Positions 8,352-54,873 of a stretch of 57,453 nt of DNA are shown here, one piece after another; the stretch's first letter is position 1, and each line of letters begins with the position of its first letter. The position numbers were made by a program, and so were the translations under genes. The notes beneath the pieces are model-generated. The model worked only from the letters and a program-made list of their open reading frames with translations. It did not search any database and was not told where the DNA came from. This DNA is from a virus, in IMG/VR virus record IMGVR_UViG_3300031576_000049, positions 1-57,453 of that record. One strand, given 5' to 3'.

Positions 8352-8618
8352 TCATCTTGATTCTTCATGTCTGCTCCTAGCGGCCACAGCGAGATTGCAG
8401 GCGAACCCGGCGAGCGCCCGGACGAACGCTGCCTCTCCGACCTCTCTGGTCTTGTGCCGCAAGCGGGCCGCGCTCTTGATGTGGATCTTTCGATCCGTGG
8501 CGGTGTTGACCCCGCACCAGCCACCGTAGGGTGACTCATAGGTGATTCGGACGCGGGCGAGCTTGCCGCTGACCTTGACGATGTAGGTGGCTCCAATTTC
8601 GACTTGAGATTTCTTCAT
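8352..8618 (-). CDS. [12 protein letters not shown]-family protein, copy A
   Basis: This 88-aa protein opens with [20 protein letters not shown], then VRITYESPYGGWCGVN and KIHIKSAARLRHK. It is a short beta-rich domain. I recall near-identical openings in planctomycete proteins, which is a host hint from memory. It is a paralogue of the gene at 9019-9378. The second Met (8618) was chosen because GGAGAAG precedes it and the paralogue starts there. It probably shares the leftward transcript. Function unknown. Confidence 0.65.
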   Translation of the reverse strand: MKKSQVEIGATYIVKVSGKLARVRITYESPYGGWCGVNTATDRKIHIKSAARLRHKTREVGEAAFVRALAGFACNLAVAARSRHEESR

Positions 8619-8804
8619 TTGGGCTTCTCCATAATCTCGCAGAGTTTTTTGCGCCATAAGTTATGGCTCCGTCCTGGCCAAGACCACCTCCACCTGATCC
8701 CCACTAACGAAAAACGTCTCGCCGGTGGCGGTCTCGATCCGAAGCCGCTGGTTATACTGCCCTCCTCCCGGCCCGCTGCGACGGGCCGAGGCAAGGCAGG
8801 AACC

Positions 8805-9443: not shown

Positions 9444-9486
9444 GTAATTTCTAATTGCTTTGTTTTGTTCGGTCTGCCAGGTTTCC

Positions 9487-10818: not shown

Positions 10819-11485
10819 TCGATACTACCTGCGCCGCCCACGCCGCCTCCGCCGCCCACGCCGCCCGCGCCGCCGCCGCCCGCGCCGCCCCCGCCGCCCG
10901 CGCCGCCCCCACCCCCGCCGCCCCCGCCGCCCACGCCGCCCACACCTCCGCCGCCTCTGCCGCCGCCTCCGCCGACCACGCCGACCACGCCTCCGCCGCC
11001 TCCGCCGACCACGCTGCCGACCACGCCTCCGCCCGCGCCTCCGCCGCCGCCCGCGCCGCCACCGCCACCGCCCGCGCCGCCTCCGCCGTTCTATCTTGCC
11101 CCGTAAGCCAATTGTGTGCCCACAGTTGAAACGCCTTCGATTGAGGCAATTTCGATGCTACGCGGATAGCGAATCCTACTCGCTGTTCCAAAGTAATTCC
11201 GAGTAGAAGGAGCCGCCTAATAGTTTTACAGCGCCTAACCCCTATCTTCAGGCCATCGGCCTTGCCTATCTCATCGGTTTCAGCCAACCATAGAATCGGC
11301 TCGGTGAAAGCTCCATGTATGGGGTTGAACAGTACAGCAAGGACAGGGTGAAGGTAAGCATGAATCCAGCCCGATGTGCAAAACGCACCAGTACCAAGTG
11401 CGGTGTGTTCCACCCCTTCGCCCCACTGGGTATTACCGTGGGTCCGTCCCTCTCGATCGGTTAGCTTGTAAATCTTCAAGGCCAT
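10760..11485 (-). CDS. DUF7666-like protein with long Ala/Trp-rich tail
   Basis: This 241-aa protein opens with KIYKLTDREGRTHGNTQWGE, then HTALGTG, GWIHAYLHPVLAVLFNPIHG and LWLAE, and continues with EQRVGFAIRVASK and HNWLTGQDRTA. This matches an uncharacterised phage/bacterial family I know as DUF7666 (name from memory). Residues about 135-225 are nearly all Ala, with Trp, Arg and Glu in short repeats (AEAWSAAW, AEVWAAWAAG). They are coded by a GCC-rich tract that is itself repetitive, and such tails are usual in the family. A weak promoter (TTTACA-N17-TTAACG) lies at 11593-11565. Function unknown. Confidence 0.65.
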   Translation of the reverse strand: MALKIYKLTDREGRTHGNTQWGEGVEHTALGTGAFCTSGWIHAYLHPVLAVLFNPIHGAFTEPILWLAETDEIGKADGLKIGVRRCKTIRRLLLLGITLEQRVGFAIRVASKLPQSKAFQLWAHNWLTGQDRTAEAARAVAVAARAAAEARAEAWSAAWSAEAAEAWSAWSAEAAAEAAEVWAAWAAGAAGVGAARAAGAARAAAARAAWAAEAAWAAQVVSINFLAVAEESGIFWTHPLE

Positions 11486-11903: not shown

Positions 11904-12046
11904 CCAGCGGTTCCGATACTTGCTCGGCGGGCCGCCGGACCGGACGGTGGGGGCGGTTCAGCCTTGCGGTTTCGCAGGTTGTCGGGAAGCGGCTCACATG
12001 GGATCGGCTCACCGGCAAGGCGGATTGCGAGCACATCAGATTATAA
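11904..12046 (+). pseudogene. IS1595-type transposase 3' remnant
   Basis: The last 22 codons read VGKRLTWDRLTGKADCEHIRL and then a stop. The intact transposase at 14173-15138 ends VGKRLTWNRLTGKEDSERVR. DNA further upstream (TTCCGATACTTGCTCG and TTCAGCCTTGCG) aligns with the intact gene after a deletion. The short frame KALSHQYQQQGRGKR follows, as in the intact element. This is the decayed right part of a second element of the same kind. Confidence 0.75.
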
Positions 12047-12222
12047 AGGCTCTGTCGCACCAATACCAGCAGCAGGGCAGAGGCAAGCGCCCGAAGGGAG
12101 AGGCTAAAAAGCTAAAGGCCGTGGATTCCACGGCCCGGCTCTATGAAGGCATCACCCTGAGTGGATTCTTGGCGGAGTCCTCGGGTGAATAGTCACATGC
12201 AACGTGACAGGAGAAGTGTGTC

Positions 12223-12318
12223 ATGCTGCTGGTCCAAAAGTCAAGATCGAGAAAAGAGGAAGCTAGGCTCAAGAAGGAACGCGAGAGGCGGAGGCAGGCG
12301 AAGCGAATCGCATCCTGA
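12223..12318 (+). CDS. Short Lys/Arg-rich ORF, probable remnant of the cassette's third gene
   Basis: A 31-aa frame starts at ATG 12223 after AGGAGAAG and reads SRKEEARLKKERERRRQAKR. Its composition and spacing resemble the C-terminal half of the 54-aa protein at 16697-16861 (LLKAEAKWKRARQRNKPAKK). It occupies the matching place between the transposase end and the right inverted repeat of the decayed element. It may still be translated or may be a fossil. Confidence 0.4.
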   Translation: MLLVQKSRSRKEEARLKKERERRRQAKRIAS

Positions 12319-12372
12319 GAGCCACGGATCGGCTCAGCCTATCGTTCCACCATGGCCCGCTACCGGGATGAG

Positions 12373-12396
12373 TTGTCAAGTAATTTGTTACCCAAA
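12373..12396 (-). repeat. Right inverted-repeat-like end of the decayed element
   Basis: Read on the minus strand, this 24-mer (TTTGGGTAACAA, then ATTACTTGACAA) matches the left end of the intact transposon (14121-14144) at 20 of 24 positions. The stop codon of the methyltransferase gene (12388-12390) lies inside it. Confidence 0.6.
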
Positions 12397-14075: not shown

Positions 14076-14137
14076 GGTTTCATCCTCCGCCGTTCTAGAG
14101 TATCATGAATTCGCCCCAAATTAGGGCAATAATTTAC

Positions 14138-14166
14138 TTGACAAATCGAACCAGATCGGCTATGCT
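14138..14166 (+). promoter_or_regulatory. Transposase promoter inside the left inverted repeat
   Basis: TTGACA (14138-14143), exactly 17 bp, then TATGCT (14161-14166). The -10 ends 6 nt before the ATG at 14173, so the transcript should begin at about the start codon. The matching promoter in the right repeat points inward on the other strand. Confidence 0.8.
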
Positions 14167-14172
14167 TGAAGC

Positions 14173-15138
14173 ATGGCACAGGAACCCAACACTCTTCAAG
14201 AAGCGATCCTCTACTTCGCCAATCCCGATAATTGCCGGGACTACTTGGTGCGACGGCGCTGGCCGAACGGCGTCATCTGCCCCCGCTGCGGGAGCCAAAA
14301 AGTAGCTCTCCTAGAGAAGTACAACCGTTGGCAGTGCAGCGCGACCCACGACGCCCGACAGTTCACCGCCAAGACCGGCACCATCTTCGAGGACAGCCCG
14401 ATTGGCTTAGACAAGTGGCTGCTGGCGATGTGGCAGATCGTGAATTGCAAGAACGGCGTCAGCAGCTATGAGATTCACCGGGCCATCGGCGTCACCCAAA
14501 AGACCGCATGGTTCATGGATCACCGCATCCGGCTGGCGCTACAAGGGAAAGAGGGTGGGAAGCTCTCCGGCGAGGTCGAGGTAGACGAGACCTTCATTGG
14601 CGGCAAGGCCCGCAACATGCACTTGAGCAGGCGGCGGAAGAAGATCACCAAGTCAGGCCCGCACGACAAGGTGCCTGTCCTCGGTATCTTGCAGCGGGGC
14701 GGGAAGGTGCGAACCGTGGTGGTGCCCGACCGGAAGAAGAACACTCTCCAGGGCACCGTGAAGGAGCATGTGGAAGCGGGCGCGGCGATCTTCACAGATG
14801 AACTGCTGTCCTACGACGGACTGGAGAGGGACTACGCCCACCAGATCATCGATCATGCGGTAGAATACGTTCGGGGCGCCGTGCACACCAACACCATGGA
14901 GAACTTCTGGAGTCTGGCGAAGCGCGGGCTGCACGGCACATACATCAGTGTGGAGCCGTTCCATCTGTTTCGATACTTCGACGAGCAGGCGTTCCGCTAC
15001 AACAACCGAAAGGACGGAGACGGCGAACTGATGAACGACGGGCAGCGGTTTAGCCTTGCGCTGTCGCAGATTGTCGGGAAGCGCCTGACTTGGAACCGGC
15101 TGACTGGGAAGGAGGATTCCGAGCGGGTCAGGGCATGA
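14173..15138 (+). CDS. IS1595-family transposase
   Basis: This 321-aa DDE transposase has an N-terminal zinc ribbon (CPRCGSQKV at 36-44 with Cys55). A helical region follows, then the ISXO2-like catalytic domain: EVDETFIGG at 136-144 (Asp138), FTDELLSYDG at 207-216 (Asp209) and NTMENFWSLAKRGLHGTYIS at 240-259 (Glu243). The length is normal for the family and no frameshift is seen, so it may be active. It has no visible ribosome-binding site and its promoter is leaderless. The stop overlaps the ATG of a 20-aa frame. It is the likely mobiliser of the downstream PIN cassette. Confidence 0.9.
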   Translation: MAQEPNTLQEAILYFANPDNCRDYLVRRRWPNGVICPRCGSQKVALLEKYNRWQCSATHDARQFTAKTGTIFEDSPIGLDKWLLAMWQIVNCKNGVSSYEIHRAIGVTQKTAWFMDHRIRLALQGKEGGKLSGEVEVDETFIGGKARNMHLSRRRKKITKSGPHDKVPVLGILQRGGKVRTVVVPDRKKNTLQGTVKEHVEAGAAIFTDELLSYDGLERDYAHQIIDHAVEYVRGAVHTNTMENFWSLAKRGLHGTYISVEPFHLFRYFDEQAFRYNNRKDGDGELMNDGQRFSLALSQIVGKRLTWNRLTGKEDSERVRA

Positions 15139-15197
15139 AGGCTCTGCCGCACCAGTTTCAACGGCAGAGCAGAGGAAAGCGTTCCGGCAAGGGTTAA
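15135..15197 (+). CDS. Micro-ORF overlapping the transposase stop
   Basis: A 20-aa basic peptide, MKALPHQFQRQSRGKRSGKG, starts at ATG 15135 in an ATGA overlap with the transposase stop. The decayed element at 12046 keeps the same frame as KALSHQYQQQGRGKR. The changes there are mostly conservative even though the transposase next to it has decayed. It could be a translated peptide or a read-through extension. No function is known. Confidence 0.35.
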   Translation: MKALPHQFQRQSRGKRSGKG

Positions 15198-15322
15198 CAT
15201 TGGTATAATGCGCCGGAAACGTCTGCTAGGAAGGCAGGGGCCGCACGCCCCGCGAAGGCTAGCGGCCCAGAAAATCTTGAACGGATCACGTAGCACGATC
15301 GGCGGTTGCCACGCCGTACGCG

Positions 15323-15342
15323 TACACTCAGTTAGGAGTGTA
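15323..15342 (+). promoter_or_regulatory. Inverted repeat covering the cassette's ribosome-binding site
   Basis: TACACTC (15323-15329), a 6-nt loop and GAGTGTA (15336-15342) form a perfect 7-bp inverted repeat. The AGGAGTG ribosome-binding site (15334-15340) lies mostly in its right arm, 6 nt before ATG 15347. As RNA it would hide the site; as DNA it could be an operator for an autoregulator. Confidence 0.6.
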
Positions 15343-15346
15343 CCAC

Positions 15347-16153
15347 ATGGCTGAGTTGCGCATCCCGGTTCTTTTGAATAAGGGTAGACCTGGAATCCCA
15401 CTACACAAGCTCGCTCGCATCTCTCTAGAACTTCAGCACTTCTTGGAACTGTTAGGCCAAGATGTCCAAATCGATTCTGGACTAGGATGGATCGGGACGG
15501 GGTTCTACGAAGGTTCTGTAGGATTCACGGCGGTTAAGGCGGAGCCGGTCGAGGATCATAAGGCGAAGGCGTTCAAGCAGGCTTTCAGGAATGTTGCGAA
15601 AAGACGACCGGACGCCAGGATTCGCCCATCCACGATCAGGCAGTACACCAGAATCGCTGATCCCATAGAACTAGAGGAAGTCGTTGGATTTGGATTGCCT
15701 CCCGTAGACGGCCCAGAACAAGGACCGGAAGAGTGGCACGACCTCACTAAGCAGGAAGCACTGTTGATCGCTTCCGAAGTGCAAACCGTAGTCCGGTCTC
15801 ATGGTGCGATTCAAGGTGTAGTTCATTCCATTTTCTTTGGGGCGTCCCCGCCGCATTTCCAGTTGAGAGAACTTTCCACTGGCGAACTTGTGAAGTGTAT
15901 TTATAGCAGTCGTAAGCAGTATGATGAACTTGCTCTCGTGCTCCAACAACAAAACGCTGTTGTGCACGTATACGGTTTTATTAAGACCGATCTTGTTAAC
16001 AGGCAGATTGAGGAACTTCGGGTGGACAGAGTCGCATTGGCCGACACATTTTCAAAGGAGGACTTCGAGCGCTTTGTAGGATGCGCTCCAGCTATGCTGG
16101 GCGATCAAAGCCTACAGGATTTCATCGACGAGGTGAGGCAGCGTGCCGACTAA
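15347..16153 (+). CDS. Cassette gene 1: 268-aa protein of unknown function
   Basis: I do not recognise this protein. It opens with ELRIPVLLNKGRPGIPLHKL, then ISLELQHFLELLGQD, and has a basic helix around KAKAFKQAFRNVAKRRPD. A later beta-rich part (GVVHSIFFGASPPHFQLREL, VVHVYGFIKTD) leads to a Leu-rich C-terminus. The fold is unclear; no nuclease, ATPase or HTH motif is visible. It overlaps the PIN gene by 11 bp, the arrangement of toxin-antitoxin pairs, though it is far larger than a normal VapB. It could be an antitoxin, target sensor or partner. The GC content looks lower than in neighbouring genes. Confidence 0.75.
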   Translation: MAELRIPVLLNKGRPGIPLHKLARISLELQHFLELLGQDVQIDSGLGWIGTGFYEGSVGFTAVKAEPVEDHKAKAFKQAFRNVAKRRPDARIRPSTIRQYTRIADPIELEEVVGFGLPPVDGPEQGPEEWHDLTKQEALLIASEVQTVVRSHGAIQGVVHSIFFGASPPHFQLRELSTGELVKCIYSSRKQYDELALVLQQQNAVVHVYGFIKTDLVNRQIEELRVDRVALADTFSKEDFERFVGCAPAMLGDQSLQDFIDEVRQRAD

Positions 16154-16700
16154 GCCCAGGGTCTACATGGACTCCTGCTGCTTCATCGAGCTTGCTCTTC
16201 ATTCCATTGGCGACAACGAACCAGGGCGTGAGAATGACATTTGGCATTTAACACAACTCCTGAATGCCGCTCATGACGGTGAAATTGAGGTGCTCACTTC
16301 GATTCTTTCCGTGGCTGAGTGTACTCATGCCAGAGGCATCGTGACGGAAGACGTCAAAACACTCTTCAAGCGATTCCTGACCTCGGGGCAATATCTGTTC
16401 CTAATCCAGGATACGATCTTGGTGGCTGAAAGAGCCAGGAACTTACGATGGGTTCACAATTTAAGTTTTGGTGGAGCGGATTCCATTCACCTGGCATCCG
16501 CGATGGAATTGAGGTGCGATGAGTTCCTGACTTTCGATGGCAAGCCACACGCTTATGTTCAAGCGCTGGATAGCCTTGCGCTCCGAATCCGTTTCCCACG
16601 CGACACGCAATGCCTCCCTGGTGACTATCGACAGCAACCGCTCATTCCCAGCGAACCACCGCCGCCATCAGAAAATACCGAGACCCGGGAGTCATCATGA
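16143..16700 (+). CDS. Cassette gene 2: PIN-domain ribonuclease (VapC-like)
   Basis: This 185-aa protein has the PIN-domain acidic set: YMDSCCFIE (Asp10), ILSVAECTHA (Glu59), GADSIHLASA (Asp113) and FLTFDGK (Asp132). PIN domains cut RNA with metal ions, and VapC toxins of this type usually target tRNA or rRNA. At 185 aa it is longer than a minimal VapC (about 130 aa); the extra C-terminus is Pro/Ser-rich. It starts at GTG 16143 inside gene 1, and its stop overlaps gene 3 (ATGA), so all three are coupled. Toxicity is inferred from the family only. Confidence 0.85.
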   Translation: MPTKPRVYMDSCCFIELALHSIGDNEPGRENDIWHLTQLLNAAHDGEIEVLTSILSVAECTHARGIVTEDVKTLFKRFLTSGQYLFLIQDTILVAERARNLRWVHNLSFGGADSIHLASAMELRCDEFLTFDGKPHAYVQALDSLALRIRFPRDTQCLPGDYRQQPLIPSEPPPPSENTETRESS

Positions 16701-16861
16701 AACCACTACCGCCACCCCACGTTCCTGGAAGCACGGACGCCGAACGCATGAACAACGCCCTCCGCACGGTCCTGTCCGTCTCCAAGGGAGACTTGCTGAA
16801 GGCCGAAGCGAAGTGGAAGCGGGCGCGGCAACGGAACAAGCCGGCAAAGAAGCCAGTCTGA
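16697..16861 (+). CDS. Cassette gene 3: 54-aa basic protein
   Basis: The frame reads MKPLPPPHVPGSTDAERMNN, then ALRTVLSVSKGDLLKAEAKW and a Lys/Arg-rich end. I recall many short proteins with this VPGxTxAERMxNA...LSVSKxDLLK pattern beside PIN genes, so it is likely a conserved third member, not a random frame. Its start overlaps the PIN stop as ATGA. The first half could form a helix, and the basic tail could bind RNA or DNA. It is a candidate antitoxin or regulator, and it is too short for most gene finders. Confidence 0.65.
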   Translation: MKPLPPPHVPGSTDAERMNNALRTVLSVSKGDLLKAEAKWKRARQRNKPAKKPV

Positions 16862-16886
16862 TCCCAGCCTGCCACGTCAGGCCCCA

Positions 16887-16915
16887 AGCGTAGCGCCGTC
16901 TGGCCTGATTTGTCA
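16887..16915 (-). promoter_or_regulatory. Inward promoter in the right inverted repeat
   Basis: On the minus strand TTGACA (16915-16910), 17 bp, then TACGCT (16892-16887) mirrors the transposase promoter in the left repeat. It would make RNA antisense to the 54-aa and PIN genes. Confidence 0.5.
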
Positions 16916-16920
16916 AATCA
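16906..16920. promoter_or_regulatory. Perfect palindrome TGATTTG-t-CAAATCA
   Basis: This 15-bp palindrome lies in the transposon's right repeat, 22 bp before the sigma-like gene. It covers the -35 of the inward promoter and a possible TTGTCA for the outward gene. It could be an operator site. Confidence 0.5.
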
Positions 16921-16941
16921 GTTATTGCCCAAATTAGGCCC

Positions 16942-54783: not shown

Positions 54784-54873
54784 TGGCGGAGGAAGGGGGA
54801 TTCGAACCCCCGAGGGCCTTTCGACCCTATCAGTTTTCGGGACTGCCGCCTTCAACCGCTCGGCCATTCCTCC
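54784..54873 (-). tRNA. tRNA-Ser (anticodon CGA), with noncanonical C33
   Basis: The 90-nt sequence folds with a perfect 7-bp acceptor stem (GGAGGAA/TTCCTCC), discriminator G and encoded CCA. It has a GCC/GGC D-stem, a 6-bp variable arm with GAAA loop, and a GGGGG/CCCCC T-stem with loop TTCGAAT. The long variable arm and G73 identify a serine tRNA. The anticodon loop is CCCGAAA, so the anticodon is CGA (reads UCG), but position 33 is C instead of the near-universal U, and 27-43 is a G-A mismatch. It may aid translation of Ser codons or replace a cleaved host tRNA. Confidence 0.9.

Follow-up and report, generated by a model that had tools for sequence, protein, structure and literature searches.

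A probable IS1595-type transporter element with exchangeable cargo and a conserved small protein in a phage-like viral record

Background

Members of the IS1595 family that carry passenger genes are described as transporter IS (tIS) in the passages of PMC11891212 and PMC3129680 that cite Siguier 2009. The transposases of all IS1595 groups except IS1016 have an N-terminal zinc ribbon (PMC8101967). Two other groups of transposons invite comparison. Defence genes of many different kinds are among the cargo of Tn7-like transposons (PMC8649781), and toxin-antitoxin pairs inside Tn3-family transposons are proposed to be integral to the transposition module (PMC7157771).

The transposon described here lies in a viral record of 57,453 bp (IMG/VR IMGVR_UViG_3300031576_000049), the whole of which is referred to as the window. 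It resembles the tIS of those passages in its zinc-ribbon IS1595 transposase, its 8-bp target duplication, and the presence of passengers inside one pair of ends. It differs in that every delimited element of the lineage has passengers, the named ones being mostly defence- or toxin-like, and in a fixed small protein, s54. Unlike the Tn7-like transposons of PMC8649781, which have a different transposase and different ends, these are single-transposase elements with a median length of about 2.8 kb. Whereas the Tn3 pairs are proposed in PMC7157771 to be integral, the PIN pair found here appears to be a single example among many exchangeable cargoes; it is s54 that would be the additional integral gene.

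In our judgement the locus is probably an IS1595 transporter IS residing in an acidobacterial-type phage, with an exchangeable cargo bay, occupied here by gene1 and a PIN-domain gene, and with s54 as an accessory of transposition. None of the papers searched describes an IS1595 lineage that combines a fixed small partner protein with exchangeable cargo of the defence type, or either feature by itself. While passengers of IS1595 elements are known, this combination appears to be new.

Ends and transposase of the window element

The transposon occupies positions 14125-16929 (2,805 bp), and its ends and transposase are as follows:

14117-14124, no strand: left 8-bp target-site duplication CAAATTAG, an exact repeat of 16930-16937 that fits the family target consensus
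14125-14155, plus strand: left terminal inverted repeat, one of an inverted-repeat pair, with the tip GGCAATAA (family consensus GGcAATaATATACTTGAC)
14173-15138, plus strand: IS1595-family transposase, 321 aa, intact, with zinc ribbon and DDE domain (Pfam and NCBIfam)
16899-16929, minus strand: right terminal inverted repeat of the same pair, with its tip at 16929
16930-16937, no strand: right 8-bp target-site duplication CAAATTAG, a perfect match to the left copy

The two ends match at 20 of their first 26 bases. In a search of every pair of ends bounded by an 8/8 duplication, 19 of 22 terminal bases matched; in 200 shuffles the mean was 8.8 and the highest value 13. The inverted repeats that the original prediction placed around the transposon are present, with a perfect 8-bp duplication directly outside them. 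The boundaries given earlier, 14121-16933, overshot the true tips by 4 bp at either end and included half of each duplication, because the near-palindromic target extends the repeat. Target duplications and empty sites had been suggested as features to look for. The former are perfect here, and many close relatives likewise have matching ends and an 8-bp duplication; an empty site for the window insertion, sought by way of the flanking phage genes, was not found.

The transposase is intact and of the IS1595 type, as had been predicted. The DDE domain matches PF12762 (9.8e-44), the N-terminal zinc ribbon matches PF12760 (1.7e-10, residues 19-57), and the whole protein matches NCBIfam NF033547 with 186.6 bits (5.5e-55), above the cut-off of 75. 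The acidic catalytic residues are kept, with D138, D209, E243 and K250 invariant in eight transposases. A DDE domain, a zinc ribbon, an 8-bp duplication and acidic catalytic residues together place the element in the IS1595 family.

A family of 84 delimited elements and its cargo

Relatives were collected by scanning with the transposase and then with an alignment of eight, which yielded 80 loci from public genomes, nearly all metagenome-assembled genomes (MAGs) of Acidobacteriota, and 80 from viral contigs. One locus, L063, belongs to Acidicapsa, which can be cultivated. An element was regarded as delimited if at least 16 of 22 terminal bases matched and the duplication was 8/8, or if at least 20 of 22 matched and the duplication was 7/8. 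By this rule, 84 distinct elements, the window's included, were delimited in Acidobacteriota MAGs and viral contigs; the relatives are mostly from MAG or metagenome contigs, and the requirement for ends and a duplication favours intact copies. Perfect 8-bp duplications lie exactly outside the repeats in nearly all of them, in different contexts and with mostly different duplicated sequences, the consensus target being CWAATTWG. Among the matches listed in a plasmid search for close DNA copies, there were only short transposase matches. Two different elements of this lineage (L097 and L100) lie on one 141-kb viral contig, and the cargo of one of them includes a Panacea-domain gene and an HNH-like gene along with one for a DNA adenine methyltransferase.

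The elements are 1,731-5,904 bp long (median 2,755), with 0.7-4.9 kb of cargo beyond the transposase and a minimum of 741 bp past its stop codon. No bare IS lacking cargo was found among the 84, although one would have passed the search criteria. Mechanically called ORFs with a minimum length of 120 aa were scanned from all elements together. The Pfam families recovered include DUF3800 (13), AIPR (4), SocA/Panacea (3), PIN (3) and RelA/SpoT (2), along with adenine and cytosine DNA methyltransferases, Mrr, PD-(D/E)XK, GmrSD, AAA_15/AbiEii-like proteins and a type I specificity subunit. PADLOC added matches to AbiU, MADS mad2 and PD-Lambda-5 B, which denote similarity only. Among an equal number of ORFs (134) taken from the flanks of these loci, the families were of housekeeping or phage structural type and hardly any recurred. 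The majority of cargo ORFs have no family match, and it is from the minority with named families that the cargo appears to be mostly defence- or toxin-like, unlike the flanks. In the window, gene1 and the PIN gene lie inside the ends, as is typical of a transporter IS, and would be dispensable for transposition.

The small protein s54

The last gene before the right end of the window element encodes a 54-aa protein:

16697-16861, plus strand: s54, a transposon-associated small-protein family, with an ATGA overlap with the PIN gene

Members of the s54 family are found inside 78 of the 84 elements, and matches are about 124-fold denser in cargo (81 per 157 kb) than in flanks (3 per 722 kb). It falls outside the families of Pfam, NCBIfam and PHROG, apart from one stray weak Pfam match to one member; a sequence search gave nothing below E 0.6, and a fold search in the PDB gave no match. 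The AlphaFold model consists of two helices (pLDDT 86), with a basic tail. The family is under purifying selection, with dN well below dS in all 15 pairs examined.

The distribution of s54 in genomes largely follows that of the transposon. In ten genomes chosen through transposase loci, and so a biased sample, 17 of 20 s54 matches have a close transposase no more than about 2 kb away, while the remaining three have a matching terminal repeat 0.3-2.1 kb away, one of them also lying 0.3 kb from a contig end. The search was repeated in 99 genomes sampled evenly across the phylum, without selection for the transposase. Here s54 was present in only four genomes, all four of which also match the transposase profile; in G083, the transposase-profile matches are only truncated or more distant. 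Eight of the 11 s54 matches lie beside a transposase and one is at a contig end, with two, both in G094, having none nearby; G094 is rich in these transposons. Four of the 99 genomes (G046, G059, G065 and G104) have a close transposase and no s54 match at the same threshold. Transposase and s54 distances are correlated (Spearman 0.26, a value reached in none of 2000 permutations), and a cargo family is common to only two of the 25 closest transposase pairs. Since s54 tracks the elements and their transposase and the cargo does not, s54 therefore belongs to the transposon lineage, with cargo exchanged around it.

The position of s54 within the elements would also be compatible with a link to the cargo. 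In 60 of 77 elements it shares its strand with the largest cargo ORF, a bias that counts against the accessory reading and also fits a role in the cargo operon, and its commonest spacing is a 4-nt overlap with the upstream ORF, as with the PIN gene in the window. Such an arrangement, in which s54 mostly comes last among the genes of the cargo strand and an ATGA overlap is the commonest spacing, would fit if s54 were a generic antitoxin or regulator of cargo, a small downstream partner shared by diverse toxins and defence genes, whose pairs the transposon collects. We consider this unlikely, as s54 follows the divergence of the transposase and not the cargo family, adjoins unrelated cargo including methyltransferases and DUF3800 genes, and is largely confined, genome-wide, to these elements. 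Moreover, in several divergent elements (L109, L112, L136, L153 and L157), s54 directly follows the transposase on the plus strand, with the cargo on the opposite strand.

Less probable still is an ordinary transporter IS with accidental passengers, in which the cargo is random host DNA and s54 a functionless conserved stub. Passenger genes of the IS1595 family are already known (Siguier 2009, as cited in passages of PMC11891212 and PMC3129680), which is in keeping with this possibility; the cargo, however, is sharply unlike the flanking genes in composition, s54 is under purifying selection, and none of the 84 elements is free of cargo.

The gene1 and PIN pair

The cargo of the window element consists of two overlapping genes:

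15347-16153, plus strand: gene1, 268 aa, first of the PIN pair, with its ATG at 15347 (ORF; no family match)
16143-16700, plus strand: PIN-domain protein, 185 aa, with an 11-nt overlap with gene1 (PF01850, 8.8e-4, below the gathering threshold; D10, E59 and D113)

All three of the passenger ORFs predicted originally are present and overlapping, gene1 and PIN by 11 nt, and PIN and s54 by 4 nt (ATGA). They do not make up the three-gene PIN cassette that had been proposed, as s54 is present with nearly every cargo and belongs to the transposon lineage. The 54-aa gene is accordingly rejected as the third cassette gene; gene1 and PIN form a separate pair, a similar one being found free in an acidobacterial chromosome with no transposase nearby (L177). 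Similar pairs also occur in three other elements (L098, L117 and L149), where a gene of 262-277 aa overlaps the PIN gene in the same order as in the window. One of the three is fully delimited (L098), one has both repeats and no duplication found (L149), and one has a right-end match only (L117). In L149, a gene for a 100-aa zinc-ribbon membrane-like protein (8424-8726) follows s54. Judged from sequence, gene1 and PIN are an independent two-gene module, and the cassette proper.

Gene1 itself has no match in Pfam, PADLOC, NCBIfam or the PDB, and the absence of a Pfam, NCBIfam or PADLOC match means that it falls in no known antitoxin family in those collections. A search with gene1 alone of viral contigs, genome contigs, plasmids and phages found no relative. 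A looser genome search gave one relative of its N-terminal half, 38% identical over 147 aa, the N-terminal part of a 462-aa acidobacterial protein (L174, 1501-2889); this gene adjoins a TPR-like gene, with no PIN gene or transposase nearby. The C-terminal half weakly resembles the gene1-like proteins of L098, L117, L149 and L177 (hhalign P 0.0012, probability 19%), and common ancestry of the window gene1 with the other PIN partners is suggested, partly by gene order. The structure model of gene1 is too poor to use (pLDDT 39); a predicted order of strand-strand-strand-helix-strand-strand in the C-terminal half hints at an OB-like fold.

The PIN active-site acids D10, E59 and D113 are invariant in four PIN proteins. 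In VapBC-type pairs, an upstream partner overlaps a PIN-domain gene with an acidic active site, and the antitoxin is small and DNA-binding. The window pair is similar in that gene1 lies upstream of, and overlaps, a PIN gene with such an active site, but differs in that the partner is 260-280 aa, has no antitoxin family match, and is not a small DNA-binding antitoxin. Given the complete PIN active site and the kinds of genes with which the pair is associated, toxin or defence activity is plausible, and the role of the pair is most likely of the toxin-antitoxin or abortive type.

Promoters and expression

Three promoter-like sites were identified in the window element:

14138-14166, plus strand: left-end promoter TTGACA-N17-TATGCT, reading into the transposase and kept across the family
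15201-15209, plus strand: extended -10 TGGTATAAT, a likely promoter for the cargo, located within the 208 nt that precede gene1, with a weak -35
16887-16916, minus strand: right-end promoter-like site TTGACA-N18-TACGCT, inward and antisense to the window cargo

Of the left ends of the 84 elements, 74 contain TTGAC and 74 a -10 that agrees at four or more of six positions, a degree of conservation that marks the left end as a built-in promoter for the transposase. The right-end -35, which belongs to the repeat and for that reason is largely retained, is accompanied by a -10 that is weaker in the family (36 of 84). The inward TTGACA-N17-TAyGCT promoter predicted for both repeats holds for the left end, while the spacer of the right end is N18. 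Since the right-end site is antisense to the window cargo, and the cargo has a -10 of its own, the idea that the element controls the cassette from its own ends is upheld for the transposase only. The TGGTATAAT sequence is likely the better candidate for a cargo promoter.

Right-end promoters may have a role in other elements. The right-end TTGAC is kept in 39 of 65 elements with a reverse-strand neighbour, versus 6 of 19 otherwise (Fisher P 0.04); for the full right-end promoter, the association is not significant (P 0.14), such that transcription of reverse-strand cargo from the right end is only suggestive. Each repeat contains the -35 hexamer, but the notion that the repeats are shared promoters around a gene cassette, with no transposon boundary, is refuted beyond reasonable doubt, since a perfect 8-bp duplication directly borders the repeats in this element and in almost every other delimited one.

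Phage context

The window encodes proteins with PHROG matches to a terminase large subunit, a DNA polymerase, a tape-measure-like protein and an exonuclease, and the record does look like a phage. The original prediction of a mobile element carrying a PIN module inside a phage is upheld, in the form of a complete unit transposon in a phage-like record. The only match in an Rfam scan of the window is a tRNA outside the transposon, a tRNA-Ser (CGA) gene at 54784-54873 on the minus strand. A long, low-complexity GCC/CCG-rich tract is present at 10825-11095. Upstream of the intact element is a second, decayed one:

11953-12392, plus strand: decayed older transposon copy of the same kind, with a transposase 3' end, a relic of the s54 C-terminus, and a right-end repeat at 12392

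This copy is 79% identical over 137 nt, with 16 of 23 bases matching at its right end, and its relic ORF (12223-12318) is a weak match to the s54 profile. The decayed copy and the intact element together indicate that the phage lineage was hit at least twice. An end-like sequence at 9456 on the minus strand, AATTAGAAATTACTTGACAAACG, matches the end consensus at 14 of 23 positions, and is possibly a solo end or a chance match.

Model and implications

In the mechanism that we propose, the transposase would be made from the left-end promoter, and would bind the ends and move the whole 2,805-bp unit. The bay between the transposase and the right end would be exchangeable, holding gene1 and PIN in this case. 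Gene1 is most likely an antitoxin or regulator and PIN an RNase, in a pair of the toxin-antitoxin or abortive type that would benefit the element, the phage or the host by stabilisation or defence. The s54 protein is most likely a basic, helical accessory of the transposition module that binds DNA or the transposase, and its production would usually be coupled to the end of the cargo operon.

A bolder extension, which we regard as rather improbable, is that s54 founds a new family of transposition partners whose translational coupling to the end of the cargo operon makes mobility depend on an intact, translated cargo. If true, such a cargo-integrity checkpoint would favour loaded elements, and would help to explain why no empty element was found.

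These observations suggest that genes of defence and toxin type are spread within Acidobacteriota and their phages by a compact vehicle of wide distribution. Since each cargo is exactly delimited by the ends and duplication, the elements offer a clean way to search a little-studied phylum for new defence genes, and the conserved partner s54, which has no family name, has a role that is directly testable.
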